Made by a program: the position numbers and the translations under genes. The notes beneath the pieces are model-generated. The model had not been told where the DNA came from. It made no database searches and was given only the letters and a program-made list of their open reading frames with translations. 58,391 bases of DNA from a virus, in IMG/VR virus record IMGVR_UViG_3300020580_000002, positions 1 through 58,391 of that record; one strand, written 5' to 3'. This document shows, one piece after another, positions 2,059 to 44,806 of this stretch. Each line of letters starts with the position of its first letter. Positions within the stretch are counted from its first letter, which is position 1.

Positions 2059-2087
2059 TTGACACATTTTGTCAGTGGTGATAGAAA
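2059..2087 (+). promoter_or_regulatory. Candidate promoter for the helicase gene
   Basis: TTGACA (2059-2064) is followed after 17 bp by TAGAAA (2082-2087), with a TGN extension of the -10. The -35 overlaps a TGACA-5-TGTCA inverted repeat (2060-2074), a possible operator. The leader to the ATG at 2171 would be about 75 bases. Confidence 0.65.
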
Positions 2088-2170
2088 GGCACCGTAGTCG
2101 TCCTGCCAAAACGTGCGTTGAAGGGGTGGGGCCACTCCACGGCCCCATTCCGCTCCTGTGGAGGGAGAAC

Positions 2171-3070
2171 ATGGTAAGCGAATACCTCATAGACCAAATC
2201 CTGCCACGCCGCGAAGTGCACCTTATAGCTGGTCCAAGCGGTGCCGGTAAGAGCACCTGGGCACTTCAAACACTTGTTGAGCAGTGGCAGGTTGGCAAAG
2301 AGGTACTAGGCTATAAGAGCTTTCCTGTCCCATGGCTGTACGTCTCAGGCGACCGCTCCATGGAGAGCGTTGAGCGCACCCTTAGGCGCATTGGCATCCC
2401 ACGCAGCAACATCAACGTTTTCAGTTGCATAGACACTCGTGTGTTCAACATTGGCAGCATCATTAAGAAGGCTATGACTGCCCCTGTACCACCGCGCTTC
2501 TTCTTTTTCGAGGGTTTCATCTCGCTCATGCTCGCCAGTGGCCTCAAGAATGAGTACAAAGACGTATCGTGGTTCCTCACCGGGCTGACCGCTACCTGCA
2601 AGGAGCAAGACATCACCATCCTTGGCTCTTGCCACGCCCCCAAAATGAAGAGTGATTCTTGGTACATGAACCCTCGCGAACGCATCCTTGGCAGTGCAGG
2701 TTGGGGTGGGTTCTGCGAAACTATTATCGTCATAGAGCCAGTTACTAGTACTGGGAACGTGGCAGACGCTTTGCCCCTTCGGCGCTTATATGTGCTGCCC
2801 CGCAACGCAGCCGAAAGGTCCATTGACCTAGTCTTCGACACCAACGGCCGGTTAGTAGAGTCCGAAGCTGAATTGTACACAGCTCTCTTCACAGCCTTCT
2901 TAGGCAAGTTCGCCGCTGGCGCCACTTTCAAGGCAGAAGCAGCTTACGAAACCCTCACGGACGCTGGTCTGTCTAGAGCCACCGTGACACGTTACCTGGA
3001 CAAAGCTGTCGCCGACGGCCGACTATCGAAGGTCGCACATGGAACGTATGCTGTAAACAGGGTAGCGTGA
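2171..3070 (+). CDS. RepA-like hexameric replicative helicase/AAA ATPase
   Basis: The 299-residue cytoplasmic protein has a P-loop GPSGAGKST at about residues 21-29, a FFFFEG strand in the Walker B position, and a later GSCHAPK segment resembling the sensor loop of RepA/AAA_25 ATPases (RSF1010 RepA type). The last 60 residues look like a winged helix (SRATVTRYLDKAVADGRL). The start at ATG 2171 has GGAGGGAG just upstream; a GTG 34 codons earlier lacks one. It stands in a two-gene plus-strand unit followed directly by an iteron-like repeat cluster, so it probably opens or unwinds the origin. No DnaB, primase or RNA polymerase gene was seen elsewhere. Confidence 0.75.
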   Translation: MVSEYLIDQILPRREVHLIAGPSGAGKSTWALQTLVEQWQVGKEVLGYKSFPVPWLYVSGDRSMESVERTLRRIGIPRSNINVFSCIDTRVFNIGSIIKKAMTAPVPPRFFFFEGFISLMLASGLKNEYKDVSWFLTGLTATCKEQDITILGSCHAPKMKSDSWYMNPRERILGSAGWGGFCETIIVIEPVTSTGNVADALPLRRLYVLPRNAAERSIDLVFDTNGRLVESEAELYTALFTAFLGKFAAGATFKAEAAYETLTDAGLSRATVTRYLDKAVADGRLSKVAHGTYAVNRVA

Positions 3071-3889: not shown

Positions 3890-4047
3890 GCTGTTATCCT
3901 CTGACCTAGTCGGTCTGTCCAAGCGGCCATTATGCCCCAAAGTATCATGCACAGGAAGCGCACAAAGCCGTTGTCGTTTGGCCACCATGACAGGAGTATG
4001 GCTATAGCTATTGTCGAATACAGCCAGCGCAGGTAACGGGCCTTCAT
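3886..4047 (-). CDS. Short two-segment membrane protein
   Basis: The 53-residue protein starts at ATG 4047, behind GGGAGG and overlapping the upstream TGA (ATGA); it ends in a TGA that overlaps the next start. Two hydrophobic stretches, about residues 11-22 and 31-43, flank a short WPNDNG turn, which predicts a small inner-membrane hairpin. Tight coupling on both sides is the main evidence. It sits with two other membrane genes, so a holin or membrane-effector role is possible but unproven. Confidence 0.6.
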   Translation of the reverse strand: MKARYLRWLYSTIAIAILLSWWPNDNGFVRFLCMILWGIMAAWTDRLGQRITA

Positions 4048-4421
4048 GCATCCTCCCTTTCAATCTCGTCAACAGCGTTCCATTCGGCTTCGGTAGGCAC
4101 TGGTGGGAGAGCACCATAGCAGCGATGTATCAAAAACGCCGCACAGGGCGCCAGCGCCACGATCACCAGCCAGTTGAGTACGAAGTCTAGCCAGGTGACC
4201 GATGTCGCTGCCACGGGCTTGCCAGCCAGCAATACCACCACTGCTGCGAGCCAGTGGGACACGCACCAGGGGCACTTGCTGAGGTCCCAAGCGAACTCAC
4301 CCCCATGCCTATGGAACCACCACCTCACCTCACGAAACATGCGTGACCTGGCTAGCGTCATGCTCAATGAGCCTACCGCTATAGACTCCATCAACAGCTT
4401 ACCTATCTCTGTCATCACCAT
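4044..4421 (-). CDS. DUF1360-like membrane protein
   Basis: The 125-residue protein has a KCPWCVSHW motif followed by two hydrophobic segments (about residues 57-67 and 78-97). The CPxC-x2-W pattern before membrane helices is typical of DUF1360-type phage proteins. A second, shorter member lies at 41993-42322 with CPMCLGAW. The start has AAAGGGGG upstream. Role unknown. Confidence 0.7.
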   Translation of the reverse strand: MVMTEIGKLLMESIAVGSLSMTLARSRMFREVRWWFHRHGGEFAWDLSKCPWCVSHWLAAVVVLLAGKPVAATSVTWLDFVLNWLVIVALAPCAAFLIHRCYGALPPVPTEAEWNAVDEIEREDA

Positions 4422-4521
4422 CCCCCTTTGGCCTGAACACCTCTCGCCACCTGCGTACCATGCCTCTGAGCACCAAGACTAGTACCAGTACCATGCCAGC
4501 CCACTTCAGCAACAGCAACAT
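4399..4521 (-). CDS. Possible 40-residue single-span membrane protein
   Basis: ATG 4521 to TAA 4399. The N-terminus is a hydrophobic segment (LLLLKW..MVLVLVLVL) followed by a basic tail. It overlaps the upstream gene by 16 bases and the downstream one by 23. The ribosome site is weak, so this is a tentative call. If real it belongs to a group of three consecutive membrane genes. Confidence 0.35.
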   Translation of the reverse strand: MLLLLKWAGMVLVLVLVLRGMVRRWREVFRPKGDGDDRDR

Positions 4522-4733
4522 GGCGGCCTGCGCTTTTTGCGTACCCGGTCTGCTTCCTGAGCCGCCTTGAGCGCATCGTCCATGACCTTCTTGCGCTTCA
4601 AAGCGTCAGCAGCATCCTTCAGCGCTCGCTGCATAGCATCAGTACTGCCTACGTCAACAGGTACTGGTACTTGCTCGTCGGTACCAGTACTGCCCGTTCC
4701 AACCGGTCGTTTGCGCTGCAACTGTTCGCTCAT
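4506..4733 (-). CDS. Hypothetical helical protein ending in a Cys run
   Basis: The 75-residue protein has GAAAGGGGG upstream of its ATG. The middle is an Ala/Lys/Asp-rich helix (about residues 33-65) and the protein ends PPCCCC, four adjacent cysteines. No family is recognised. It starts inside the stop of the upstream gene. Confidence 0.6.
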   Translation of the reverse strand: MSEQLQRKRPVGTGSTGTDEQVPVPVDVGSTDAMQRALKDAADALKRKKVMDDALKAAQEADRVRKKRRPPCCCC

Positions 4734-4975
4734 CTTGCCCCCTTTCGCGTACCATCCCTAAGCGTTATCGGGTCTTCATGGCCATCGCATCCATCGTGTA
4801 CACACGCATGGCACCAACAGCCACTAGAGCATGGGCCAAACTTCTGCTCCAACGCCGCTTCAATCGCACTGTTGAGTGCTGTCGTGGGTGGCACCTCAAC
4901 GGTCCTAAACTCCGCTTCAGTACTAGTACCATCCACACCACCACTGCCCGGCCTGCGCTTGCGCTGTTGGCTCAT
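4730..4975 (-). CDS. Small Cys/His-rich protein
   Basis: The 81-residue protein contains CSSGCWCHACVHDGCDGH near residues 49-66, five Cys and three His that could bind zinc or form disulfides. The N-terminus is basic. A GGGGGGAG ribosome site precedes the ATG. Function unknown. Confidence 0.6.
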   Translation of the reverse strand: MSQQRKRRPGSGGVDGTSTEAEFRTVEVPPTTALNSAIEAALEQKFGPCSSGCWCHACVHDGCDGHEDPITLRDGTRKGAR

Positions 4976-4979
4976 GTGC

Positions 4980-5204
4980 TCACTCCCCCCTGTTGCTCAT
5001 AGCTGTATCAATGGCTGCGTACATACGGTCCCAGCCGATGTCCTGAAGGGCAATCTTGACCACTACGGACTCGCTGAACATTGGTACCCTGCTATCGTGA
5101 CCGATAGCTGTGCGTTCAGGTATAACTACCTTGCCTGCTACCAAGTCTCGAAAGTCTTTCTCACTTAGCGAAATGCGAACTTCGGTCAGCTTGTCTGTGG
5201 CCAT
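4980..5204 (-). CDS. Hypothetical protein
   Basis: The 74-residue protein starts at ATG 5204, behind AAGGAGG, two bases after the stop of the AAA+ gene. It has a mixed alpha/beta composition and no motif. Being placed directly after the PAN-like ATPase it could be an adaptor or substrate, but nothing in the sequence shows this. Confidence 0.65.
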   Translation of the reverse strand: MATDKLTEVRISLSEKDFRDLVAGKVVIPERTAIGHDSRVPMFSESVVVKIALQDIGWDRMYAAIDTAMSNRGE

Positions 5205-5205
5205 A

Positions 5206-6621
5206 TCAGCCTCCTTGCACCGCTCCCTGAATCTTCGCAACACCCTCGACCTTGACCCCATGCCGCTCAGCGTAATCCTCAATCTCCAACCGGTGGCTCA
5301 AGCGCAGGTGCTCTAAGTAAACACCCTCGAACGCAGCATCAATGTCACCCTCACAAAGCGCACCACTCTTATGCCCACCAGCTACGCACCTATGAATAGC
5401 CTTAGCACTAGCCTGCTCCACTAGGCCAGCTATCATGGCACCACTTACTGTATGGTACATGTGAAAGGTAACTGTACCTTTACTGGTACGTAACTGATAC
5501 AAAGGGTACGCATCACTAAACAGTTTCGATGCTGCGTACCCCGGCATGTTGTCACCGCTCACTGGTATGTCACGCAGGTGTATAGCAAAGATGCGAATGG
5601 TCGCATTCAGGTCCGGTGGCGCGACATACACCTTACGGTCAATCCTGCCCGGCCTGGTGACTGCGCTGTCAAGCATGTCGGCCCTGTTGGTGGCCAGTAG
5701 CACAATCGCACCACTCTCTTCCAGACCATCCATCTCACTGAGAAACTGAGGCACAATGGTGTGCTCCATGCCTGACGCGGTACGACTCCCACGTGCAGTC
5801 AACAGCGCATCAGCCTCGTCAATGAAAATAACAGCAGGCCACCCATGCTGCGCCTGGTGCTTGCGAGCCTGCTCAAACAGCCCCCTGATCATCGACTCGG
5901 TCTCACCCACCCACTTTGACAGCAGCTCCGGCCCTTTGATGTAGATGAACGCGCCCGGCACAGTGCGCTTGCCATGGGCAGCAGCAATAGCGCTCACCGT
6001 TGCCTTACCGAGCAGCGTCTTACCATTGCCAGGCAACCCATGCAGCAGCACTCCACGGGCGTGGCGCTTGCCAAAGTGTTTGTAAAGAGCAGCATGCGTA
6101 TAAGGCATCTCCACACTTTCACGCAGCGCCAGCTTGGCATCCTCCAACCCGCCAACATCGTCCCACGTGACGTGCGTATCAGTCGTGAACGCAAACTTGG
6201 GCGGCTTCGTCAGCTTAAGCATGATGACCGTTGACGAGCCATCCATTACCACCTCATCTCCAACCTCAACCGGCACTCGCGTGCTGGCCACCGTCACCGT
6301 ACCCTGCTCCACAGCCACCTGCCAAAAGTCCTTTTCAACCTTGACAACAGTCCCGGTCATCCCATAGGTATCAAACGGCAGAGTACCCACCACCATCCCA
6401 GTAGGTGCCACCTGCACACAATCACCCACCTTCAACGCCTTGCTAGGCATGGGCACCACCGACCCATTACTCAACAACACCTGCTTGCCCTTGACGCTCG
6501 TAACACTAGCCACCTTCGCCGGTATCGCCGTTAGTTCCTCTAACAGCGCCTGCTGCTCGGCAATCTTAGCCTGCGCTTGACGCAGCAACACTTCCATGTT
6601 GTTATCCAACTGAGCCATCAT
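5206..6621 (-). CDS. Proteasome-ATPase-like AAA+ protein (coiled coil, OB-like region, AAA)
   Basis: The 471-residue protein has an N-terminal coiled coil (about 8-32), a beta-rich region (about 38-140) and one AAA module: WDDVGGLEDAK at 153, Walker A GLPGNGKT 195-202, aromatic pore loop SKWVGE 235-240, Walker B VIFIDEAD 264-271 and an SRH with RPGRID 323-328. This order matches Rpt/PAN/Mpa/Cdc48 unfoldases rather than ClpX or Lon. No HbYX tail for docking to a 20S proteasome and no protease domain are present. A role in remodelling or unfolding host or phage proteins is an inference. It is encoded in the same operon as a MoxR/VWA pair. Confidence 0.85.
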   Translation of the reverse strand: MMAQLDNNMEVLLRQAQAKIAEQQALLEELTAIPAKVASVTSVKGKQVLLSNGSVVPMPSKALKVGDCVQVAPTGMVVGTLPFDTYGMTGTVVKVEKDFWQVAVEQGTVTVASTRVPVEVGDEVVMDGSSTVIMLKLTKPPKFAFTTDTHVTWDDVGGLEDAKLALRESVEMPYTHAALYKHFGKRHARGVLLHGLPGNGKTLLGKATVSAIAAAHGKRTVPGAFIYIKGPELLSKWVGETESMIRGLFEQARKHQAQHGWPAVIFIDEADALLTARGSRTASGMEHTIVPQFLSEMDGLEESGAIVLLATNRADMLDSAVTRPGRIDRKVYVAPPDLNATIRIFAIHLRDIPVSGDNMPGYAASKLFSDAYPLYQLRTSKGTVTFHMYHTVSGAMIAGLVEQASAKAIHRCVAGGHKSGALCEGDIDAAFEGVYLEHLRLSHRLEIEDYAERHGVKVEGVAKIQGAVQGG

Positions 6622-6857
6622 CGCCCCCCTTTCGAATCATCCTTGCAGCCAATATCATCGTCGCTGACGTGCACAGTGATAGGCGCGCTGCTCTCAATCA
6701 AAAACGTCACGCGCTTGCCGCCACGATAGGCAGCAGCCCAAAACACACCCGTGTCCATGCGCTCTAATCTGAACAGGTCAGCCGTGACCGCCACATCATC
6801 CACCTGGCCAGCAGCATCCAAGCGCACAGCACTCCACACCTTATCGGCCATGCTCAC
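6618..6857 (-). CDS. Hypothetical protein preceding the AAA+ gene
   Basis: The protein has 79 residues if it starts at GTG 6857 and 77 from ATG 6851; GGGGGTG lies upstream. It ends in TGA overlapping the AAA+ start (ATGA). The composition suggests a small beta-rich fold. Function unknown. Confidence 0.6.
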   Translation of the reverse strand: MSMADKVWSAVRLDAAGQVDDVAVTADLFRLERMDTGVFWAAAYRGGKRVTFLIESSAPITVHVSDDDIGCKDDSKGGR

Positions 6858-6888
6858 CCCCAGTTTTGATAGATTTACTACAGGTTAA

Positions 6889-7146
6889 CTAATGCTGTGT
6901 AACTTCTCGGACGCGCGTGCCAAGAATCCACACTGGCACCTTTGGCGTATCCATCCATTCGACGCAATATACGAACCGCGCCGGATAACTCTCACTCAGC
7001 GGCCCCATGCTGCCGATGACAGTGCCCAGTGCGCCATCCCGGTGGGCATCACCGTTGGCGGTGCCAGTTTTCTCAACCGTTGCGCCATTTTTTATCGCAC
7101 CGTCAGCCTGACCACGAAACTCAAACGCTCTCCATTGACCACTCAT
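6889..7146 (-). CDS. Conserved small phage protein (GxVxGS ... VEW)
   Basis: The 85-residue protein has the pattern GTVIGS-(about 14)-FVYCVEWMDTPKVPVWILGTRV, which I recognise as a recurring short phage protein, beta-rich, of unknown role. GGAG lies upstream of ATG 7146, which overlaps the upstream stop. Confidence 0.7.
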   Translation of the reverse strand: MSGQWRAFEFRGQADGAIKNGATVEKTGTANGDAHRDGALGTVIGSMGPLSESYPARFVYCVEWMDTPKVPVWILGTRVREVTQH

Positions 7147-7355
7147 TGTTTCTCCAGCACTGCTTTCACAGCAGCCTCCTCAGCATCTTCCTTCTCAAAA
7201 TCTGTCCACAAAAAGTGGCAAGCAGGACAGTCATACACTGGCGCATAGTACTCAGTCGTACCTGCCTCACCATGTCTGCCCCTGACAGGCGCTTGGAACT
7301 TTTCAATTCTCATCACCGTGTCCCAGTTGCCGCAGTTCGGACATTCCTTGCTCAC
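7143..7355 (-). CDS. Zinc-ribbon protein
   Basis: The start is chosen at GTG 7355, which overlaps the upstream TGA (GTGA) and has GGGGGTGG before it; an in-frame ATG at 7376 is possible. The 70-residue protein has CPNCG near the N-terminus and CPACHFLWTDFE near residue 48, one four-Cys zinc ribbon with an acidic helix after it. Possibly a DNA- or protein-binding accessory. Confidence 0.7.
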   Translation of the reverse strand: MSKECPNCGNWDTVMRIEKFQAPVRGRHGEAGTTEYYAPVYDCPACHFLWTDFEKEDAEEAAVKAVLEKQ

Positions 7356-8053
7356 TCTGCCACCCCCAAGCGCCAAGCAGGCACAATGTTCTGCTCCAGC
7401 TTGCCCTTGTCACCATCAAGCCCCTTGCGCTGATCGTTACATTCACCCCACTCGATGCGTTCACCCATACGAATGCCCTTTTCACCATCATCAGTGCTCA
7501 CCAGCTTGCCCTCTGGATGGCGCTTGTAGAGCATGATCACGCCAACAGCCGTCGCATCAGGATAGATACAGTTAATGGTGAGCGCCTCTTGACGGTCAGG
7601 ATGCTCACTAGGTCTGCCCGCCTGGCGCTGCCACTCCTCAGACTGCTCCTTCGTCAAATCCTTTGGCGTCACCAAACACCACCCATCCGTCACTAACACC
7701 ATAGCAGCAGCTTGATGCTTGGCACAAAACTCACTCAACCCCCGACCAATCTCCCGCTTAGCCCTTGGCCCATTCCAGCCTTCAGGTATCAGGGCCACCA
7801 GCACATGCGGCCCTTGATTCAAAGGCGCATACACCATAGCCATGGGCATGAAGTCTGCGCCCTTCGCTGCTGTCTCGACCAACATGCTGCGCGCCAACTC
7901 CACAGCCTCATCAAACATGGCCTCCACACTCTCGGTCTGCGGCTTCTGGTGCTCATCAGCAGGCACAGGCGCATGTACGAACTCAACCGGCCCATAAGTT
8001 TCGTTTTTGCCCCTTGCTGACCACTTTTTGAGCACGTCGTCAAGGTCGCTCAT
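7352..8053 (-). CDS. Conserved hypothetical phage protein
   Basis: The 233-residue soluble protein begins at ATG 8053, with GAAAGGGGG upstream. It has an alpha/beta mix with strands MVLVTDGW and TAVGVIMLYKR and a conserved-looking RPSEHPDRQEALTINC segment. I recall similar hypothetical proteins in other phages but no function. No catalytic motif is apparent. Confidence 0.65.
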   Translation of the reverse strand: MSDLDDVLKKWSARGKNETYGPVEFVHAPVPADEHQKPQTESVEAMFDEAVELARSMLVETAAKGADFMPMAMVYAPLNQGPHVLVALIPEGWNGPRAKREIGRGLSEFCAKHQAAAMVLVTDGWCLVTPKDLTKEQSEEWQRQAGRPSEHPDRQEALTINCIYPDATAVGVIMLYKRHPEGKLVSTDDGEKGIRMGERIEWGECNDQRKGLDGDKGKLEQNIVPAWRLGVAE

Positions 8054-8307
8054 GCTGCACCCCCTTTCACCACACCACAGCGCTTGACATGCCTCACCAG
8101 CGAGCGCCTGTCTATAAATCCAAACTCACCACACTTGGCACACTTGCGCTCATCGCGACGGGCCTTCAGCCGCTTGCGCCTACGCTCCCCACGTGCTGCC
8201 TTAAGCATCTCACTGTGCCCAATGATGCCTGCGAAGCTGCCCCACCGCGACTTGGCAGCCTTACGACCACCGCGTCCATGTTTTCTAGTACCGCCTCTAC
8301 CTGGCAT
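8050..8307 (-). CDS. Very basic zinc-finger protein
   Basis: The start is ATG 8307, inside the end of the upstream gene. The 85-residue protein is Gly/Arg/Lys-rich at the N-terminus and ends in a finger CAKCGEFGFIDRRSLVRHVKRC (C-x2-C-x12-H-x3-C type, with an additional Cys/His choice). Charge and finger suggest nucleic-acid binding. Confidence 0.65.
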   Translation of the reverse strand: MPGRGGTRKHGRGGRKAAKSRWGSFAGIIGHSEMLKAARGERRRKRLKARRDERKCAKCGEFGFIDRRSLVRHVKRCGVVKGGAA

Positions 8308-8488
8308 TGCCCACCACCTTTGCCTGTTCGTCATCACGGAACGCTTTAGTCTCAGTCAGCAACCACTCAGTGCGTTCCCATGCGCTGATCAACTTCATCT
8401 CACGCAGGTCAAGCTGCATCTGGTGCAGCTCACTCAGCAGCCTGTTAAACCTAGCTGTGCGAATGTCTTTGTCAGTCATCACATTCAT
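8297..8488 (-). CDS. Small helical protein
   Basis: The 63-residue protein is preceded by GGTGGTGG. Heptad-like Leu/Met spacing (LLSELHQMQLDLREMKL) suggests a coiled coil. It overlaps both neighbours. Function unknown. Confidence 0.6.
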   Translation of the reverse strand: MNVMTDKDIRTARFNRLLSELHQMQLDLREMKLISAWERTEWLLTETKAFRDDEQAKVVGNAR

Positions 8489-8712
8489 GCTGCCACCACC
8501 TTTCGTGCACGGTGCATACCTAACTTATTCCCACACCACCACGGCGTAATGCGATTGCCTTCCACATCGTCAAGGCTCACCATCAGACCAGAGCCATGCG
8601 CATAGCCACAAAAGCAACACTGGCTGTCGCGCAACTCGCCAGTGAACACCTGCCCATGGCGCTTAGCCCCTGGTGCACACATCTCACATACCGAATGTGC
8701 TTCACTGTCCAT
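8485..8712 (-). CDS. Zinc-binding small protein
   Basis: The 75-residue protein has CEMCAPG at residues 9-12 and CCFCGYAHG at about 32-35, plus WWCG near 59. Together they could form a zinc ribbon. TAGGAG precedes the ATG. It follows the VWA gene by eight bases. Confidence 0.65.
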   Translation of the reverse strand: MDSEAHSVCEMCAPGAKRHGQVFTGELRDSQCCFCGYAHGSGLMVSLDDVEGNRITPWWCGNKLGMHRARKVVAA

Positions 8713-8720
8713 GTCTGCTC

Positions 8721-10151
8721 CTACTTGAACTGAGCTGCGTAGTGCGTGCTTTTCAGGTACGCATCAATGTTGTGGTACTGCGTAATCCCGACCATTTTGC
8801 ATATGAGCAGACACTCCAGGTTCAGCGTAGGATGATTCTGCTCACCACCCATGCTCGCACCCGTCACCTCCCCATCACTAATCCACACCCTTGGCCTGGC
8901 TTGACGCGCCAGCCACCTGAGCGCAGGCCCATCCACCACATTGGCACCAGGAAACGTAGGCCAGGAGCGCTCAGCAGCATGCCGACCTTCCTTGGCGAGC
9001 ACGGTCAAATGCCCCATGCTCAAGCCCCTGCTGTCATGCTCACCACCACCTGAGTAGACAGCAATGGTTGCCAACGGGCTCCTGCGTAGCAACTCCACCA
9101 ACTGAGCCTCACTGATGCTCATGCTGCCACTCTTGTCGAGCAACACCGTCCCACCAAGGCCGGGCAACTTCGCATGCCACGCCCTGCCGTCCATCGCCGG
9201 AATGAGCGCTCGATGCGGATAGCGAAAGGCACCAATGAAACAAGGGCGATGTCTAAACGAATGCCTGATGGCGCGCTTGGTCATTGACAGTGCACGCTTG
9301 CGCATCTGGCCCCACGGCGGTATATCCATGCCCGACTGGCGCTCACTCTCACTCTTCAACCGTTCGAGCTGCTCACCAGCCGTCTCCATGTCTTTGGTCC
9401 ACGCCAGGGAGCGCATGAAGTCACGTTTCCACTCGCTAGACAGGTGCCTCATGCTATTGAGCCAATTCATCATGTCTCTGCTATTCTCTTTGCGCTTCCC
9501 CTCAGGCACATCACCAGCTCCTGACCGTGGCATGATGGCGCCCTCATCCACAGCGCGCTTGAGGTCAAAGGCATCCTGCACCACCTCTGCCCAGTGTGCG
9601 AGCTGAACAGCATCAAACTGACCAGCAGCAGCACCAGTCGCAGCCTTGGCACCAATCGCTTGTGCCCCCTGCGCTGCTTTCGCTGCTGCAATATTTATCT
9701 CCTTGCTAGCCCTTTGAACCCATGGTGGCAAGTTGTTGGCCAACGATGCCCCAAACGAGCCAATGTACGTCTTAGCCAGATACTCAACCCCATGACTAGC
9801 ATCAGCCACTACTGGTAGCGCCTTCAGCTCAACGCCCCTCGCAGCAGCAAACCCATTCACCGCCGCCATGAACACCGCCTCAACGATGTCCCTTTCAACA
9901 TGCGCCTCACGACACAGGCGCGCATATTCAGCCACCGCTGCTTCTTGCGAATGGCGCAATTGCAGGTTAGCGTACTGCTGAAACCTCAACGCCTCACTAG
10001 CCTCATCATCACCCATGGGGGCAGTGAACGAGCCACCACCCCCATAGCCCACCACCACCCGCGCTGTTGGTGCATTGCTGACGCCCCACGGTCCAGTGCC
10101 ATGCACTGCACTCGGCAGGGCACCCTTCTGATCATCACCTCGCTTAGCCAT
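8721..10151 (-). CDS. VWA-domain protein, partner of the MoxR-type ATPase
   Basis: The 476-residue protein is helical for the first 300 residues and then has a von Willebrand A fold with a MIDAS motif DKSGS (339-343) and a later SDGEVTG (about 423-430). Its start shares one base with the stop of the MoxR-type gene (TGATG), the classic arrangement of MoxR/RavA-ViaA/CobS-CobT pairs. In known pairs the ATPase acts with the VWA protein as a metal-dependent chaperone or chelatase. The phage role is unknown; no chelatase large subunit or cobalamin gene was seen. Confidence 0.85.
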   Translation of the reverse strand: MAKRGDDQKGALPSAVHGTGPWGVSNAPTARVVVGYGGGGSFTAPMGDDEASEALRFQQYANLQLRHSQEAAVAEYARLCREAHVERDIVEAVFMAAVNGFAAARGVELKALPVVADASHGVEYLAKTYIGSFGASLANNLPPWVQRASKEINIAAAKAAQGAQAIGAKAATGAAAGQFDAVQLAHWAEVVQDAFDLKRAVDEGAIMPRSGAGDVPEGKRKENSRDMMNWLNSMRHLSSEWKRDFMRSLAWTKDMETAGEQLERLKSESERQSGMDIPPWGQMRKRALSMTKRAIRHSFRHRPCFIGAFRYPHRALIPAMDGRAWHAKLPGLGGTVLLDKSGSMSISEAQLVELLRRSPLATIAVYSGGGEHDSRGLSMGHLTVLAKEGRHAAERSWPTFPGANVVDGPALRWLARQARPRVWISDGEVTGASMGGEQNHPTLNLECLLICKMVGITQYHNIDAYLKSTHYAAQFK

Positions 10152-10870
10152 CAGGCACCAACCTTCGCCGCAACAGGAGCACCACTCAACTTCAAGGCAG
10201 CCACCACATCTCTGCCCTTGGCGCCAAACGCGACTTTCGCTGCCTCATCACTGTCAACACCAGCCAGCGCCAACCTAGCAAACGTCAGTGCAGCGCGGGG
10301 ACTAATGGCCTTGCTCTCCTGCGCATACGACTTCTTCACCATGGTGCCCAACCCATTCACTTGTGCATTCAGGTGAGCAATGAGCGCAGGATGGGGCACA
10401 CTCACCACAATCACGCACTCAAACCGGTCTGCCAGCGCCGGGTCTAATTCGTCAACACCACTGTTGCTAGTGGCGATGACGGTGAACGTAGCCTTAGGCT
10501 GTACCACTTCGCCAGTAGGCAGAACAATCTGACATACGTCAGGGCTGTCGAGCACCCCCAACATGGCATCCTTGACCGAGCTGCTGGCACGTCCTAGCTC
10601 GTTGACCACAACCAAGCTGCCCTCTCTCAGCGCCGTCGTCAAAGGCCCATCGTGCCACACAAACTCACCACCCTTGGGCACAAAGTGTCCTAGCAACTCC
10701 TGCAACACCACATCCTCAGACAGGGTAATGCTAATCACCTGCTGCTGCTTAGACTTCAGGGCATGCTGCGCCGCATAGGTCTTACCCACCCCCGGCGGAC
10801 CCACCACAAAGATGCGATTCAAATGCCGCACTGCCACTTCCAGTAACTTCCAGTTCGCTTCAGACATCAT
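10151..10870 (-). CDS. MoxR-type AAA+ ATPase
   Basis: The 239-residue protein starts at ATG 10870 (ATG 10867 also possible), with AAGGGGG upstream. Walker A GPPGVGKT is at 24-31 and the Walker B strand is SLVVVNELGRA with Asn-Glu (90-91) instead of Asp-Glu. ATSNSG (sensor 1) and DPALADRFE (arginine finger) follow. The size fits the ATPase core of MoxR/CobS. The Asn in Walker B may alter metal binding, but the Glu is kept. It is coupled to the VWA gene downstream. Confidence 0.85.
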   Translation of the reverse strand: MMSEANWKLLEVAVRHLNRIFVVGPPGVGKTYAAQHALKSKQQQVISITLSEDVVLQELLGHFVPKGGEFVWHDGPLTTALREGSLVVVNELGRASSSVKDAMLGVLDSPDVCQIVLPTGEVVQPKATFTVIATSNSGVDELDPALADRFECVIVVSVPHPALIAHLNAQVNGLGTMVKKSYAQESKAISPRAALTFARLALAGVDSDEAAKVAFGAKGRDVVAALKLSGAPVAAKVGA

Positions 10871-11013: not shown

Positions 11014-11250
11014 TTAGTTAACGCGACAATGCTGCTCATGCAGGTCCCACCACCGACCATCTGCCTCTACAGCCTTTTGCGGGTCAGGCCACACCTCAGG
11101 ACCAGTCTCACACTCACTACCACAGGGGCATATCATGGTGCACCTGCTTGGAAAGTGTCCATGCTCTTTCCACATGTCACCCCAGGCAGGCTCATACCAA
11201 TCAATGCGCTCAATGAGCGCACCACATTCACATCTGACGGTCAACATCAC
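11014..11250 (-). CDS. Zinc-ribbon protein
   Basis: The 78-residue protein has CECG at residues 7-10 and CPCG at about 41-44, with further Cys near 37 and 47. A helix-poor small domain is followed by a Trp-rich tail. Its ATG overlaps the upstream stop. The 143 bases from its stop to the MoxR start hold only an in-frame extension of MoxR and no other gene that I can support. Confidence 0.6.
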   Translation of the reverse strand: MMLTVRCECGALIERIDWYEPAWGDMWKEHGHFPSRCTMICPCGSECETGPEVWPDPQKAVEADGRWWDLHEQHCRVN

Positions 11251-38178: not shown

Positions 38179-41100
38179 ATGGCCCAGTACACCTTAATCA
38201 CCGGCACCGTAAGGGACCCTACTGGGCGTATTTACCAGAACGGTACCTTCAGCGCTACCTTTCACGACCCCGGCACCAGCGGCAAGCTAGCTTCCCTATC
38301 CAACGGCCAGCCCTTCGAGCAAACCATCACCGGTACGCTCGACAGCTTCGGCTTCTTTAGCGTGCTCGTGGCCGACAATGGGCAAATCGCATCAGCCTCC
38401 GGCGCCACCGGCACCAGTTGGAATTTCGAGTTTGCCGCCAATGCTAGCATCCTGCAACTCACTGGTATCCAACCCATCCCCAGTTTCAGCTACTCAACAC
38501 CTATCATTTGCGCAACAAACACCCCTGTCGTATGCGGCGTTAGCATGGACATCAGCACCCCCATACAGGCAGTGTCCGCGCTTTTGCCCCCCGTAAGTGG
38601 CAGTGGGGGCCCAACGCTATTCGCCGGTGTGCCTACTGGCCCATGCGCCGCAACACAAACCGCCGTCAACACCCTCACCGGCGATTTTTACTCTTGTGTG
38701 TCTGGCGCATGGTTTAAGGTTGGTCCTGGAGGCGTTCCACTGTCAGCAGCACTGAAGCCAACCCTGCCAGGCGACCCGGTACAGTTTGTGTCTCCAAACG
38801 GCAATGACACAAACGACGGCTTGTCGTGGGGCAGTGCCAAGCTGACAGTCTACAAAGCACTGCAATCACTCCCTGGCGGTTCCAGTACACAAGTCGGCTC
38901 AGGTACCGTCCTTCTGAGCGGCGTCGTAAGCTACGGCGGCCCAGCAGCCAGCCAAGGCATGTGGATTATGGGAGGGTTAGACCCAAACTCGGGCAGTCCT
39001 CCCTCAGGCTGGCTACTTAAGAGCACGTCCGGCCCTATCAACATTGAATGCGCCTTCCCTCCCATCCAGTTCGCCCATGCACACACTCCTGCCTGCACCA
39101 TGACAGGCGGAGGCAACACTGACTTAGTGCACCCTGCAATTTGGCTCTCCGCAACTAACACCATCAACATAAAAAACGTCGGGCTCAGCAATTTTCTGAA
39201 CACTTACGTCAAAATCGGCATCGACTCCAATAACAACCGGAGTACTGCTGCTGGAGGCAGTTCCAGCATTTCGCTGGACGGATTGAGCTGGAACCACGGA
39301 AGTTGCCGATTTGGCGGCGGTCCCGGTCTGGACATCGGCTCTAACACCTTTTGGATTTGGATGCGCAACATTAACGGCAGCGGCTGCAGCTTTGGCGAGC
39401 TAACCATTGCTGGTTCTGGTACCCCTGGCCTCAGCCGCTCCGCAAACGTCGTCACTGTCAACACGACCGCACCAGTCAGCATCACTGCAGGTCCAACTCA
39501 GTGGATTACCGTACAAAACGCCAGCGACCCTAGCTTTAACGGCTCCTTCGCCGTCACTGCGGTCAATTCGAGCCAGCAATTCACTTACGCCCAGGTAGGC
39601 CCCAACGCAACGAGTGGCAACGGGCAGGTAGTCACTGCCGCCAAAGCCGCTATCAACCACGACGCTGGCGGTGGCTCCGGCTCAGGCTTAGTTTTTCTGG
39701 ACAATTTCCAACTAAACAGTGGAGGTATCCGCATCGTCCCCGGCAATCAGGGCGCTGGAATGTACATTCGCAACGGCGATTACGAAGGAGACGGTGCCAA
39801 CCCCGACATGCCGATGGTCCTGGTAACCAGCCAAGTAGCTACTTCAGCGGGTACTGGCATGAACGTTGTCGTCGAGAACTTGGAAATTTCGGACCCCCTC
39901 GTGAGCATCCCCGGCGTGCAAATAGACAACGGTGGAATACCCATCATCAAGGTATCCCGTGTGGACAAAGGTGTGTCAGGGCCTGCGCTGGTCTTGGGTG
40001 GCACACCTTCTGACTTTGTGATTAGCGATTTGCGCCAACTGCACCCAGGCTACAACGTTTTCGGCCGCGTCGTAGGTGGCGGCATCGACGTAGCTAGAAG
40101 GGGCTTCTCTCCTGTTGCAGTGACGTTCCCTAACTTAGCGTCAGCAGCACCTAGTGCTTGGACCTTCGAGACTGGAGCAGGTACCATCACCTCGGGCATA
40201 GCTGCTCCTGACGGCACCACTGGAGCAGGCCGCATCACCTCGAACGCGGGGACAGCCTCGGTGGACGTGTTTAGCAGCTTAGGCACAACGCTGACTGTTG
40301 GCGACGCTTACATCTACGGCGCATGGGAACGCTCAAACTCTGGCGGCGTGCTCAGTGGTGGTGGCGTCAAGCTGGCGCTAAACTCTAACGGCCAGGGTGT
40401 CGGAGATACTTGCGTTGGGGGTGCCCAATCAGGCACCACTCTATTCAGCCAGTTGTTCGGCGACGGCCAGTGGATATGGAACTCAGGTCTGTGCAAAATC
40501 GCCACTAACCCTAACACTGCTGGCCTGACGTTGAGCGTCCCTGTCACCAACCCCAACGTCATGGACGTGTACGCACCAGTTCTAATCAAAGTGCCTGCTG
40601 GCACCAAGTCTGACAATGAGCTTTACGAGATTGCGCTTAACCTTTCCAGTTACTCTGCCACCGCCGTGGCAGGCGATGTCTCCATGCTTGGCGGGCAGTA
40701 TTTCCGTCCTGGATGGAGCACTTTTACGAACCTTGGGGCGGTGCGCAACGGTACAACTATCTACTGCACCGACTGTGTGGACAATAGCCCATGCGCAGGT
40801 GGTGGCACTGGAGCGTTCGCACAAGGGCTAAATGGCGTATGGGTATGCAACGGTGCTGGAAGCAACATACCTTTCAGCGTCGTCACCACTGGGACAAACA
40901 CGAACGCTCTGGTTGTCGGTACTGGCGGCTCGCTGAATGCAAGCGGCTCGGGCATCGTCAATGCCACCATCGTGACCTCTGCGACTGCGAGCCCGGCGTT
41001 GTCTGGGGTAGTGCGTCTAGCGTCTGGCGACCAACTATGCTGGCGCAACAATGCAAACAGCGGTGACGATTGTATCCTCAAGACCGCTACGGATGCTCTA

Positions 41101-41778
41101 CAGCTAAGTTCGTTCTTTCCTGTGATCGCTGGACAGTTCGCCTCAGCTACAACCCCGCGCGCTGCGGCTGGATTCATCAGCCTGGCGACTAATGATGCCA
41201 TCGCCTGGAGAAACACTGGCAACACGGGGGATATTTTCATCACTCTTAACGGGGTTAACAATTTCGACTTCAGCACCGCCCTGCTCGGGGCGCCAGGCTT
41301 CTATAGCAACGCCGCTACGGTCTCGGTGACGGGGGTCGTGAGGCTAGGCACTAACCAGACGGTGAGCTGGCGCAACAATGGCAACACTGCAGACCTTGGG
41401 CTCACGCTAAACTCGTCCAACGTTTTCACCTTTGCCGCGCCAATCCAACCGCCAGCCTACCTAACTAGTACCAACTGCTCCTCTGGCGCTTCGCCAGCAG
41501 TGTGCGGCTCTGCTGCGGCGGGCAGTGTAGCAGTGCCTACCGGCACGAACGCTACCTTGACAGTGAACACCACCGCAGTGACGGCAAACAGCCAGATTTT
41601 CGTACAGCAAGATGATACGCTGGGAGCGAGACTGAGCGTTACTTGCAACAGCACATTGTCGTCGTTAATCGTCGAGCCAGTCGTCACGGCGCGTTCCGCC
41701 GGAACTAGCTTTACTGTGACGATCAGCGGCACGACAGTGACTAACCCAGTGTGCTTAAGTTACTTTATAGTTAACTAG
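38179..41778 (+). CDS. Tailspike or tail fibre 1, beta-helix protein
   Basis: The 1199-residue protein has an N-terminal particle-attachment domain (residues 1-115) related to that of the second spike, a pectate-lyase-like start VSPNGNDTNDGLSWGSAK (about 203-221), a long Ser/Gly/Asn-rich parallel beta-helix and a C-terminal Thr-rich part. Probably a receptor-binding, polysaccharide-recognising or -cleaving spike. The catalytic residues cannot be assigned. Confidence 0.75.
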   Translation: MAQYTLITGTVRDPTGRIYQNGTFSATFHDPGTSGKLASLSNGQPFEQTITGTLDSFGFFSVLVADNGQIASASGATGTSWNFEFAANASILQLTGIQPIPSFSYSTPIICATNTPVVCGVSMDISTPIQAVSALLPPVSGSGGPTLFAGVPTGPCAATQTAVNTLTGDFYSCVSGAWFKVGPGGVPLSAALKPTLPGDPVQFVSPNGNDTNDGLSWGSAKLTVYKALQSLPGGSSTQVGSGTVLLSGVVSYGGPAASQGMWIMGGLDPNSGSPPSGWLLKSTSGPINIECAFPPIQFAHAHTPACTMTGGGNTDLVHPAIWLSATNTINIKNVGLSNFLNTYVKIGIDSNNNRSTAAGGSSSISLDGLSWNHGSCRFGGGPGLDIGSNTFWIWMRNINGSGCSFGELTIAGSGTPGLSRSANVVTVNTTAPVSITAGPTQWITVQNASDPSFNGSFAVTAVNSSQQFTYAQVGPNATSGNGQVVTAAKAAINHDAGGGSGSGLVFLDNFQLNSGGIRIVPGNQGAGMYIRNGDYEGDGANPDMPMVLVTSQVATSAGTGMNVVVENLEISDPLVSIPGVQIDNGGIPIIKVSRVDKGVSGPALVLGGTPSDFVISDLRQLHPGYNVFGRVVGGGIDVARRGFSPVAVTFPNLASAAPSAWTFETGAGTITSGIAAPDGTTGAGRITSNAGTASVDVFSSLGTTLTVGDAYIYGAWERSNSGGVLSGGGVKLALNSNGQGVGDTCVGGAQSGTTLFSQLFGDGQWIWNSGLCKIATNPNTAGLTLSVPVTNPNVMDVYAPVLIKVPAGTKSDNELYEIALNLSSYSATAVAGDVSMLGGQYFRPGWSTFTNLGAVRNGTTIYCTDCVDNSPCAGGGTGAFAQGLNGVWVCNGAGSNIPFSVVTTGTNTNALVVGTGGSLNASGSGIVNATIVTSATASPALSGVVRLASGDQLCWRNNANSGDDCILKTATDALQLSSFFPVIAGQFASATTPRAAAGFISLATNDAIAWRNTGNTGDIFITLNGVNNFDFSTALLGAPGFYSNAATVSVTGVVRLGTNQTVSWRNNGNTADLGLTLNSSNVFTFAAPIQPPAYLTSTNCSSGASPAVCGSAAAGSVAVPTGTNATLTVNTTAVTANSQIFVQQDDTLGARLSVTCNSTLSSLIVEPVVTARSAGTSFTVTISGTTVTNPVCLSYFIVN

Positions 41779-41790
41779 GGAGGACCAGCA

Positions 41791-42078
41791 ATGGCCGACA
41801 TACGCATGTACGTGCAAAAAGGGTGCCCGCATTGTGAGGCGGCACAGCAGTTTTTGATAGGCCGTAACATGACCGTGGAGGTCATTGAGATTGGCTTCGA
41901 CCCGATTTTACAGGCAGGCATCAGGTCTAGCTCGAACGGGCAGGGCCTGCCGGTGCCCATCATCATCTCGTTCGCAACTCAGGAGGTCGTCGTTGGAAAC
42001 GACACCGCCACACTTCAGCGTTTGGCAGATGCTGCTTTTGTCCATCGCCCAGTCGCATCTCACGCTGCTGCTTCGTGA
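41791..42078 (+). CDS. Glutaredoxin-like protein
   Basis: The 95-residue protein begins with a beta strand IRMYVQKGCPHCEAAQQFL, with CPHC redox pair (13-16), followed by VEVIEIG and the cis-Pro segment GLPVPIIIS. It fits a thioredoxin-fold glutaredoxin/NrdH type. Between two tailspike genes this is unusual; GGGAGG lies upstream. Confidence 0.7.
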   Translation: MADIRMYVQKGCPHCEAAQQFLIGRNMTVEVIEIGFDPILQAGIRSSSNGQGLPVPIIISFATQEVVVGNDTATLQRLADAAFVHRPVASHAAAS

Positions 42079-42322
42079 GGGAAGGGCGTTCGACTGGCTG
42101 TTTCGCGGTCGCCTACTGAAGGAGATGCGCGAATGCCCCATGTGTTTAGGGGCTTGGACAGCGTTAGGTGTCTCATTGGCAGCAGGTCTACGCAACCCGT
42201 GGCAGATTCTTGTAGTCGCAGGGGTTGGGCATGTGCTATACCTGTTTCGAGATAAGTACCTGCCCTGCGATAAATGCACCATCCCGCCAGCGGTGCCGTT
42301 CAAGTTTATAAACAGGAGTTGA
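41993..42322 (+). CDS. DUF1360-like membrane protein, second copy
   Basis: The start is taken at TTG 41993 with GGAGGT upstream; ATG 42029 is possible. The 109-residue protein has CPMCLGAW followed by hydrophobic helices and a late CDKC pair. It overlaps the glutaredoxin gene by 86 bases. Related in motif to 4044-4421. Confidence 0.6.
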   Translation: METTPPHFSVWQMLLLSIAQSHLTLLLREGRAFDWLFRGRLLKEMRECPMCLGAWTALGVSLAAGLRNPWQILVVAGVGHVLYLFRDKYLPCDKCTIPPAVPFKFINRS

Positions 42323-42325
42323 CCA

Positions 42326-44806
42326 ATGGCTGGCTCGACAACGAACGTCACCGGGACAGCAACTGATTCCCAGACTACGCCATATATCAATGGCACCTGG
42401 GTAGCGAACCTCTTCAACCCGACCTCTTTCCAACCGGTGTGGGGTGGCACTACAAATTTCACAACCACCTATGGCGGGGCGCTCGACAACACCGGCTCGT
42501 TCGCTGCTACCCTGCCATCAAACACCGGCGCCAACTCTATCACCGTCGGCGGGTTGACCACTACGCAGTGGACTTTTGCGTTTTTTACCTCTGACGGCGA
42601 GAATGCCTTCACCGCAACGGTCACCATCACCGGCGCTAACCAGAGCATCAGCGCATCCATCATCAACGCGGCACGCATCTTTTGGGAAACCGGTGACACA
42701 AACCCTCCACCTTGCGGCACCGGCCAAGGAATCGTATCGCTAGGGACGGGAACTTTCGGATGCGGAGGCGGTTCGTTCCCGGTCACCACGATTGTAAACG
42801 TCAGCTCAGGCGGCGGAATCCAGCCTACCGGTACCGGGTTCGTCAATATTGTTCCTGTTAATACGCCTATAACACAGTCACAGGTTGGGCCGGGATTCAA
42901 TGTTAAGAACTATGGAGCGAAGGGCGATACGCAGTTTAGTGCTGCAAACTGCACGCTCAACGGTACGGCAACGCTCGTTTGCCCAGGAGCCAACTTCAAT
43001 TCTGCAAAGGATGTCGGTAAGCGGGTCAATTGCGGGTCTGGCCTAGGCGGGGGCCTCCAAGTAGCGGCAGGTACGACTATAGCGTCGGTTACGAACTCTA
43101 CAACTGTAGTGATGTCAAACGTCAGCGGCCAAAACAATAACATCTTCTCGTGCGCATGGGGAACCGTAGACGATGTAGCTGTCAACGCGGCCGTCACTGC
43201 ATGGCTAGCAGCAGCTTCTAGCACCTCAGGACAGCGCGGCCCATTCAACAACAACAATAATCCGCAATCTCCAGTCTTGTACTTTCCCGCTGGAGCCTAC
43301 ATGCTCTGCGGTTCAGGAAACTCCATAATCAACTTCGCATCAAGCAAGTTTGGCGCTGTCGTTACAGGAGATGCGCCACAGGAATCATGGCTTGTCCCCT
43401 GCGACATCCCAAACATGGGCGGGAATGATTTCTTTGTACAGCAGAGCGGGACAAACGGTCTGGTCATCAGGAACCTATCTATTGACGGTATGTTCTTTCC
43501 CGAGGGCGGCGCGAATGCCTTCAACCTGGGGGGCGACCATCGTACAGAGAACGTAACTGTCACGCGCTGGAACGGGGCCAACGGCTTCCTAAGTGCAGGT
43601 GGCGGTGGGTATAACCTGAACATGAATATAAATAACTCCATCGGGGGCATTTTCTGCAGCGGTTGCAACGACGAGTTCCATGCTGGAGGCTCATCGAACA
43701 ATGGGACGGGCGGCGGTGCCTTCAACTTGAAGGTGCAAAATGTCGTCGGCGAAAACACCGGTACCGGTGCTCGCTTTACAGGTAACTTCCTCATCGACGA
43801 ATGTGGCGCATCAACGAACGGCTGTACGCAAATCCTTAACTCGCAGGATGTGTGGTTTCAAGGAGCGTCGCTGTTCTCGACACCCAGCTCCAACGCTCTT
43901 TACGTTGATGGTACTTCCTTCGTTCATATGTCCGGGGGTATCGCGGGGTGTTTTGGCACCGATGCACCATGTACGGGAGTAAACATTCTGGCCGGTGGGG
44001 TCGTGCAGTCCTCAGATGTAAGGTACGTTGGTTCCGGCACAACTGGGAAGTGCATCAACAACGCCGGTATCTTTAATGATAACGGTGGCAACTCTTGTGA
44101 GACACAATTCACAGTCAACAGCGGTACATCGACAGGAACGGCTGCAGTTCTAACAGTGAACGCTGGCCCCGGTGCCCCAAACACGCTTTGTACTGTGGGC
44201 GATGCTTTAATTGTTGAGGGAGTTTCACCTGCAGGCTACAACGGTTACTACCCGGCAGGCGCAACCAGTGGCGTTACAGCAGTTTCCGGCACGACAATTA
44301 GCTATACAACTGCCGGGAGCAACCTCGGAGCAGCAGGCGCCGGTGGCATTGTGACCTGCCGTAACCTGCAAACTTACGCAGGTACGCTACCAAAGGCTTT
44401 GCTCAATAACCCCATCCCGAATACCTGCTATCTCACCATCACTCCCATTGTAAACGCCACAACCTATCAGATGTGTAACTGGGGAGCTGGCAGTCCCACG
44501 AACATTTCGCGCATCACGGCTAGTTCACAAAACGTAACTACCTGTGCCACAGCGCCAATCATCACCATCTCCAACGGAACGGTTTCGCAAACGCTGACGC
44601 TCACCAGCGGCAAGCAGTTCTGGGACAGTTTCGCTGCCCAAGACGCGAGCACCGGTGTAGGTACAACGATATTCAAGCCAAGCATCTCGCTCACCGGCAC
44701 AGACAGAATCACGATCAAGTACGACGCTGGTGCGCTATCGGCTTGTGCCACACCGCCAACCCTGTTGGCAGTCAGTTACACCATTTCGCCCATCTTGAGC
44801 AACTGA
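42326..44806 (+). CDS. Tailspike 2, pectate-lyase-like beta-helix
   Basis: The 826-residue protein has an N-terminal domain like that of the first spike (TxTGTxxDxxxxPYxNGTW), a bridge near 120-190, the Pectate_lyase_3 entry FNVKNYGAKGD (about 190-200), a beta-helix and a C-terminal beta-sandwich. A depolymerase role is plausible. Two spikes sharing an anchor suggest branched adsorption apparatus. Confidence 0.75.
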   Translation: MAGSTTNVTGTATDSQTTPYINGTWVANLFNPTSFQPVWGGTTNFTTTYGGALDNTGSFAATLPSNTGANSITVGGLTTTQWTFAFFTSDGENAFTATVTITGANQSISASIINAARIFWETGDTNPPPCGTGQGIVSLGTGTFGCGGGSFPVTTIVNVSSGGGIQPTGTGFVNIVPVNTPITQSQVGPGFNVKNYGAKGDTQFSAANCTLNGTATLVCPGANFNSAKDVGKRVNCGSGLGGGLQVAAGTTIASVTNSTTVVMSNVSGQNNNIFSCAWGTVDDVAVNAAVTAWLAAASSTSGQRGPFNNNNNPQSPVLYFPAGAYMLCGSGNSIINFASSKFGAVVTGDAPQESWLVPCDIPNMGGNDFFVQQSGTNGLVIRNLSIDGMFFPEGGANAFNLGGDHRTENVTVTRWNGANGFLSAGGGGYNLNMNINNSIGGIFCSGCNDEFHAGGSSNNGTGGGAFNLKVQNVVGENTGTGARFTGNFLIDECGASTNGCTQILNSQDVWFQGASLFSTPSSNALYVDGTSFVHMSGGIAGCFGTDAPCTGVNILAGGVVQSSDVRYVGSGTTGKCINNAGIFNDNGGNSCETQFTVNSGTSTGTAAVLTVNAGPGAPNTLCTVGDALIVEGVSPAGYNGYYPAGATSGVTAVSGTTISYTTAGSNLGAAGAGGIVTCRNLQTYAGTLPKALLNNPIPNTCYLTITPIVNATTYQMCNWGAGSPTNISRITASSQNVTTCATAPIITISNGTVSQTLTLTSGKQFWDSFAAQDASTGVGTTIFKPSISLTGTDRITIKYDAGALSACATPPTLLAVSYTISPILSN

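Follow-up and report, generated by a model that had tools for sequence, protein, structure and literature searches.

The genes at positions 5206-10870 of a 58,391-nucleotide stretch of viral DNA (positions 1 to 58,391 of IMG/VR record IMGVR_UViG_3300020580_000002, hereafter the window) raise the question of whether two ATPases encoded side by side in one phage are parts of one machine. The window is tailed-phage DNA, containing genes of the terminase, portal and major head protein, and a run of genes on its minus strand encodes a MoxR ATPase, its VWA partner and an AAA+ ATPase. In the initial annotation, it was suggested that these three could form a system of host take-over or metal-dependent maturation. 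The MoxR/VWA pair and the AAA+ gene are two unrelated modules lying side by side, and the AAA+ protein is best read as a branch of the Mpa/ARC unfoldase family working without a proteasome. The genes concerned, all encoded on the minus strand, are as follows:

10151..10870, minus strand: MoxR (AAA_5) ATPase, 239 aa (Pfam AAA_5, E 4.1e-21; relatives in contigs L001 and L009).
8721..10151, minus strand: VWA partner of MoxR, 476 aa (PHROG 33218, E 1e-20; alignment A5).
6618..6857, minus strand: 79-aa protein directly upstream of the AAA+ gene and overlapping its start (59% identity to 9760-9975 of contig L015).
5206..6621, minus strand: ARC/Mpa-type AAA+ ATPase, 471 aa (TIGR03689, structure model and tree).
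4980..5204, minus strand: 74-aa open reading frame (ORF) between the AAA+ gene and small protein 1.
4730..4975, minus strand: small protein 1, 81 aa, with the Cys cluster CSSGCWCHACVHDGC in its C-terminal half; the ORF has a Shine–Dalgarno sequence.
4506..4733, minus strand: small protein 2, 75 aa, a candidate adaptor with a bare Cys tail; the ORF overlaps that of small protein 1 and has a Shine–Dalgarno sequence.
4044..4421, minus strand: small membrane protein, 125 aa, DUF1360-like (family hidden Markov model (HMM), E 5.8e-26).

The identities originally assigned to MoxR, VWA and the proteasome-ATPase-like AAA+ were all correct, and the TGATG overlap joining MoxR and VWA is present. The AAA+ gene, placed in that annotation four kilobases further, starts 2.1 kb past the VWA stop and 3.5 kb past the MoxR stop, and what was called one operon there is a run of genes on a common strand.

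Single-protein scans of viral contigs for AAA+ and VWA gave no matches, and alignments were required. The alignment-based scan for AAA+ yielded 80 viral loci, on contigs of up to 482 kb; the scan for VWA yielded 73 loci, 61 of them with enough upstream sequence. The gene-neighbourhood check, set beforehand, was run on these phage contigs in both directions. Alignment models of MoxR (A6) and VWA (A5) were used to scan 48 whole contigs carrying the AAA+ family: VWA gave no match whatever, no pair of the window type was found, and MoxR gave weak matches only, the best of them (E 9e-18) to distant AAA_5 proteins. In 45 whole contigs carrying the pair, no member of the AAA+ family was detected; matches of the AAA+ model were limited to Walker A scraps (E about 1e-3), and the same model recovered the control contig with E 1.7e-168. 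None of the VWA loci has either the AAA+ gene or the gene of the membrane protein. The contigs may be fragments; the two independent contig sets agree. In the near relative L015, whose terminase and AAA+ are 91% and 76% identical to those of the window, homologues of the genes flanking MoxR/VWA (window 8485-8712 and 11014-11250) are located at 8182-8403 and 7908-8153, just 28 bp apart, with no MoxR/VWA between them.

The common strand and the distance of 2.1 kb in the window speak for a joint MoxR/VWA/AAA+ system; the reciprocal co-occurrence of 0/48 and 0/45 and the clean absence of the pair from L015, with the flanking genes kept, speak against it. We therefore consider one joint machinery extremely improbable; it is refuted as a conserved system, while a private interaction in the window phage alone is possible. 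The proposed tie between small Cys-rich proteins and a remodelling machine holds for the AAA+ protein and fails for MoxR/VWA.

The MoxR/VWA pair is a self-contained chaperone/co-chaperone cassette of a published kind, present or absent as a unit. The gene of MoxR adjoins that of VWA in 61/61 VWA loci with enough upstream sequence. The window contains the two elements of the phage MoxR-vWA pair, an AAA_5 MoxR and an adjoining VWA protein with a metal ion-dependent adhesion site (DKSGSMS at residue 339, in the C-terminal domain). Translation of VWA is probably coupled to that of MoxR, because their genes overlap in TGATG and VWA has no Shine–Dalgarno sequence of its own, whereas MoxR, AAA+ and the three genes downstream of AAA+ each have one. 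Asn-Glu in the Walker B motif of MoxR, previously pointed out as standing in place of Asp-Glu, is indeed present (VVVNE); it is a rule of the family and no oddity, being shared by 57/63 phage relatives. MoxR also matches the PHROG of cyanophage CobS; the reading of MoxR as CobS was not adopted. For the MoxR-vWA pair of jumbo phages, in which a metallopeptidase is found on vWA, a role in virion assembly was proposed (Iyer et al. 2021, PMC7824862), and the same work recalls that an archaeal virus requires such a pair to assemble its tail. The window resembles the jumbo-phage system in having MoxR beside VWA in a phage genome, but differs from its form with an N-terminal metallopeptidase: the motif HExxH, present in 50/68 longer VWA relatives, was not found in the window VWA protein. 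The window VWA seems to have lost this motif, the same place being occupied by HTAMH in L009 and HENMH in L001.

The AAA+ protein almost certainly belongs to the ARC/Mpa family. The coiled coil, OB-like region, KWVGE pore loop and RPGR noted initially were seen again, as sequence motifs and as a predicted helix and OB-like beta units; the motif set includes Walker A GLPGNGKT, the pore loop KWVGE, Walker B VIFIDEAD and ATNR..RPGRID. The best NCBIfam family is TIGR03689 (E 1.7e-79, AAA+ residues 10-465 aligned to model positions 21-509), with a score of 267.9 bits, under the equivalog cut-off of 504.75. The AlphaFold2 model, made from 38 sequences with a predicted local distance difference test score (pLDDT) of 89.9, consists of an N-terminal helix (3-32), two OB-like beta units (36-80 and 89-137) and the AAA module; the predicted coiled-coil helix has pLDDT 63-88 and lies outside the range aligned to Mpa. 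In the structure search, Mpa leads with Z 30-31 over 408-425 residues (window residues 33-464, Z 30.8), and the next family, PAN, is matched by the AAA domain only, with Z 26.7. The N-terminal helix, tandem OB, AAA and aromatic-hydrophobic-Gly pore loop are thus shared with Mpa/ARC of Actinobacteria. The phage protein differs from them in its sub-cut-off score, its separate clade and its C-terminus, GAVQGG, which has no GQYL tail, and the phage contigs differ in lacking genes of the 20S core and Pup ligase and in having other partner genes. The 'proteasome-associated ATPase' of Brevundimonas phages Polewnik and Strzyga was considered as a close relative and rejected: it is not alignable in the coiled-coil/OB part, and it is followed neither by a small protein with Cys nor by the membrane protein.

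A branch supported at 98 in a tree of 83 proteins separates the 46 phage proteins of this family, which is widespread in phages, from bacterial ARC. GQYL, the docking motif for 20S (PMC8223512, PMC8755798), is absent throughout the phage clade and present in most of the bacterial ARC found. Genes of the 20S core and Pup ligase (PF00227, PF03136) were not found in 49 related contigs, with positive controls; the host may encode a 20S core. ARC without a proteasome is known from C. glutamicum, in which it was proposed to unfold pupylated ferritin (PMC8223512). The phage case would resemble it in having ARC without 20S and in the unfolding without degradation proposed for C. glutamicum; the latter uses Pup, PafA and Dop, whereas in the phage loci all three are absent and a membrane protein is added.

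Genes of the membrane protein were found within 730 bp downstream of the ATPase, on the same strand, in 29/46 loci of the GQYL-less family. This gene is the standout neighbour of the GQYL-less ATPases, any other gene family occurring in no more than six neighbourhoods, and it is absent from the FtsH-like, GQYL-type, L001 and L009 loci. The only invariant columns in 27 membrane-protein sequences are those of CxxC, represented in the window by CPWCVSHW at the start of the second transmembrane segment. The loop with CxxC is placed in the cytoplasm because of its positive charges (positive-inside rule, 4.7 vs 0.8 K+R). In the structure model (pLDDT 93), three long helices of membrane type are accompanied by a basic helix that ends at CxxC; the structure search with this protein gave no significant match. 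A weak profile match, with its centre in the region of CxxC, links the protein to DUF1360 (PF07098) and PHROG 781, but the window copy, with 12.8 bits, is below the PF07098 cut-off of 21, which the copy from L021 passes with 22.0.

The stretch from the ATPase to the membrane protein encodes small proteins with Cys motifs, 60-105 aa in length. Small protein 1 of the window shows 42% identity to 11442-11675 of L015, and a similar Cys cluster is present in L016; small protein 2 (45% to L015) has a Pup-like N-terminus, MSEQLQRKRP, a predicted amphipathic middle and the tail PPCCCC. The small proteins form one family even with the Cys tail cut off: when a model was trained on one half and tested on the other, the area under the curve was 0.97-0.99 with other short ORFs as decoys and 0.90-0.99 with shuffles of the small proteins themselves. 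A bare C-terminal Cys pair occurs in 22/29 loci with the membrane gene and in 1/17 loci without it (Fisher 6.6e-6), against a background of 52 such ends in 2,050 ORFs. Where the membrane gene is absent, the small protein mostly has a knuckle of three or more Cys instead. Contigs L064, L065, L066, L082 and L090 (39-429 kb) belong to a separate branch, in which the small protein has, in place of a bare Cys tail, an internal CGCGG or CCGCGC with 30-50 further residues after it.

The genes of the ATPase, small proteins and membrane protein are likely to work together. Pup binds the coiled coil of Mpa in helical form, with its disordered N-terminus threading into the pore (PMC8755798); CD4/CD8 and Lck are joined by a zinc clasp of CxC and CxxC (PMC10768021). 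From this docking and the geometry of a zinc clasp between Cys tail and CxxC, an ARC unfoldase that is tethered to the membrane through a clasped adaptor is proposed. With the ATPase as its core, the compact module would unite an ARC ring with one or two small proteins of Pup size and, usually, with a three-helix protein of the inner membrane. As Pup does on Mpa, the small protein would dock by its middle helix on the coiled coil of the ATPase, and a Zn(Cys)4 site would be shared between its C-terminal Cys pair and the CxxC on the cytoplasmic side of the membrane protein. The ARC ring, presumably a hexamer with unfoldase activity, would thereby be tethered at the inner membrane, unfolding or extracting target proteins there, and its substrates may be membrane proteins. 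The likeness to CD4/CD8-Lck consists in a two-Cys tail and the CxxC of a membrane-linked partner, four Cys in total (PMC10768021); the proteins are unrelated and the likeness is one of motif alone, the zinc of the phage module being putative.

Taken as a whole, the explanation by two modules, one of them a proteasome-free ARC with a clasped adaptor at the inner membrane, has in our estimate an even chance of being right. The role of the small protein as an adaptor is slightly favoured, and the zinc clasp between Cys tail and CxxC is a tentative suggestion from analogy. It is similarly doubtful, though possible, that the phages own an ARC system in which a Cys-tailed adaptor of Pup size replaces Pup and zinc-clasps the CxxC membrane protein, giving a membrane-tethered unfolding machine unlike any in cells. 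Several observations weigh against the clasped arrangement. In 17 of the 46 loci the whole contig lacks the membrane gene, which hence is not obligatory, and five loci with it have an internal, not a terminal, Cys motif. The association of tail and membrane gene comes down to two supported phylogenetically independent pairs, or seven on the best tree, too few for significance. Bare CC or CCCC ends, such as that of the window, are not exactly CxC, and the Cys of the clasp could equally form a disulfide relay.

Three other roles of the module were considered, each of them unlikely. The small protein might be a Pup-like tag, the Cys tail of which is joined by a thioester, disulfide or other bond to targets unfolded by the ARC ring, with the membrane protein as conjugating or docking partner. 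The size of the small proteins, their position beside an Mpa-like ATPase, the N-terminus MSxQxQ[K/R] and the DDxLxxhD-type middle are all similar to those of Pup, and an HMM of Pup built from 51 sequences ranks them above other short ORFs (p 1e-15). Against composition-matched shuffles, just 5/32 pass the 95% level and four the 99% level, so the profile signal barely exceeds composition and the small proteins were not accepted as members of Pup. Pfam Pup is not among the families listed as matching them, Cys tails stand in place of a GGQ/GGE C-terminus, and no Pup ligase was found in the 49 contigs; a tag is improbable.

The module might also serve metal or redox homeostasis: acting on the CxxC membrane protein, the small Cys protein would be a metallochaperone or thiol carrier and the ATPase a factor of insertion, maturation or clearance. 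The Cys motifs in both partners fit such a role. It leaves unexplained the constant ARC type with its coiled coil and OB ring, as well as those loci in which knuckle proteins occur and the membrane gene does not, and we give it a low probability. The same low standing belongs to a virion assembly chaperone, with the membrane protein marking a membrane-proximal assembly site. Phage AAA+ chaperones of the BCS1 type have been proposed at membrane assembly sites, as has a virion-assembly role of MoxR/VWA (PMC7824862), but the structural genes nearby are not the same throughout the clade, whose members occur among differing neighbours on contigs of 13-482 kb. The clasped-adaptor unfoldase is the preferred explanation.

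Around these genes, the AAA+ module of the window spans 6621-4044 and includes the ATPase, the 74-aa ORF, the two Cys proteins and the membrane protein. The upstream 79-aa protein (6618-6857) is a neighbour conserved only in L015 and at most a putative member of the module. A divergent gene adjoining the module (2069-3070, plus strand) encodes a RepA/KaiC-like AAA_25 ATPase, the homologue of which occupies the same place in L015 and lies nearby in L040. Another protein with weak likeness to DUF1360 (E 0.0075), containing ECPMCLGAW, is encoded at 41873-42322 on the plus strand, between the long ORFs 38179-41778 and 42326-44806; in the contig of the near relative, too, there is an additional weak match (G003:1444-1623, E 7e-5).

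A smaller set of phage contigs (L051, L054-L057, L059, L061 and L063) encodes ARC with a GQYL or GMYL tail, nested among bacterial ARC in the tree; several of these genes adjoin the terminase gene. Their products are candidate phage-encoded activators of the host proteasome. The ATPase ORF of L052 (8402-10840) contains an intein-like insertion exactly within Walker A (GPPGC...VAHNCGKT). Two INPHARED matches were rejected as bacterial contigs filed as phage, neither of which gives phage evidence: H6, with Mpa, Dop and Pup together, and H3, with FtsH between carAB, folP and tRNAs. The record L006 (MT835496.1), filed as phage, carries an Mpa-Dop-Pup operon with the Pup end QKGGQ and looks like a piece of an actinobacterial chromosome; L008 (CAKLQH020000021.1), an 'Acinetobacter phage' record with carAB, ftsH, folP and tRNAs, is bacterial chromosome.

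In the open literature on phage-encoded proteasomal ATPases, Pup in phages and DUF1360, subscription journals and preprints being outside this scope, no account of such a module was found, and the three-gene module appears to be undescribed so far. The puzzle of two machines in one phage gives way to two modules, each testable on its own. In bacteria, Mpa/ARC ATPases are known to act as partners of Pup and 20S; a large branch in phages without either, but with conserved small partners of its own, would, if true, make the unfolding ring a reusable part. The module would then offer a simple three-gene system for studying how unfolding rings are recruited, and would point to a phage strategy of remodelling or removing host membrane proteins.

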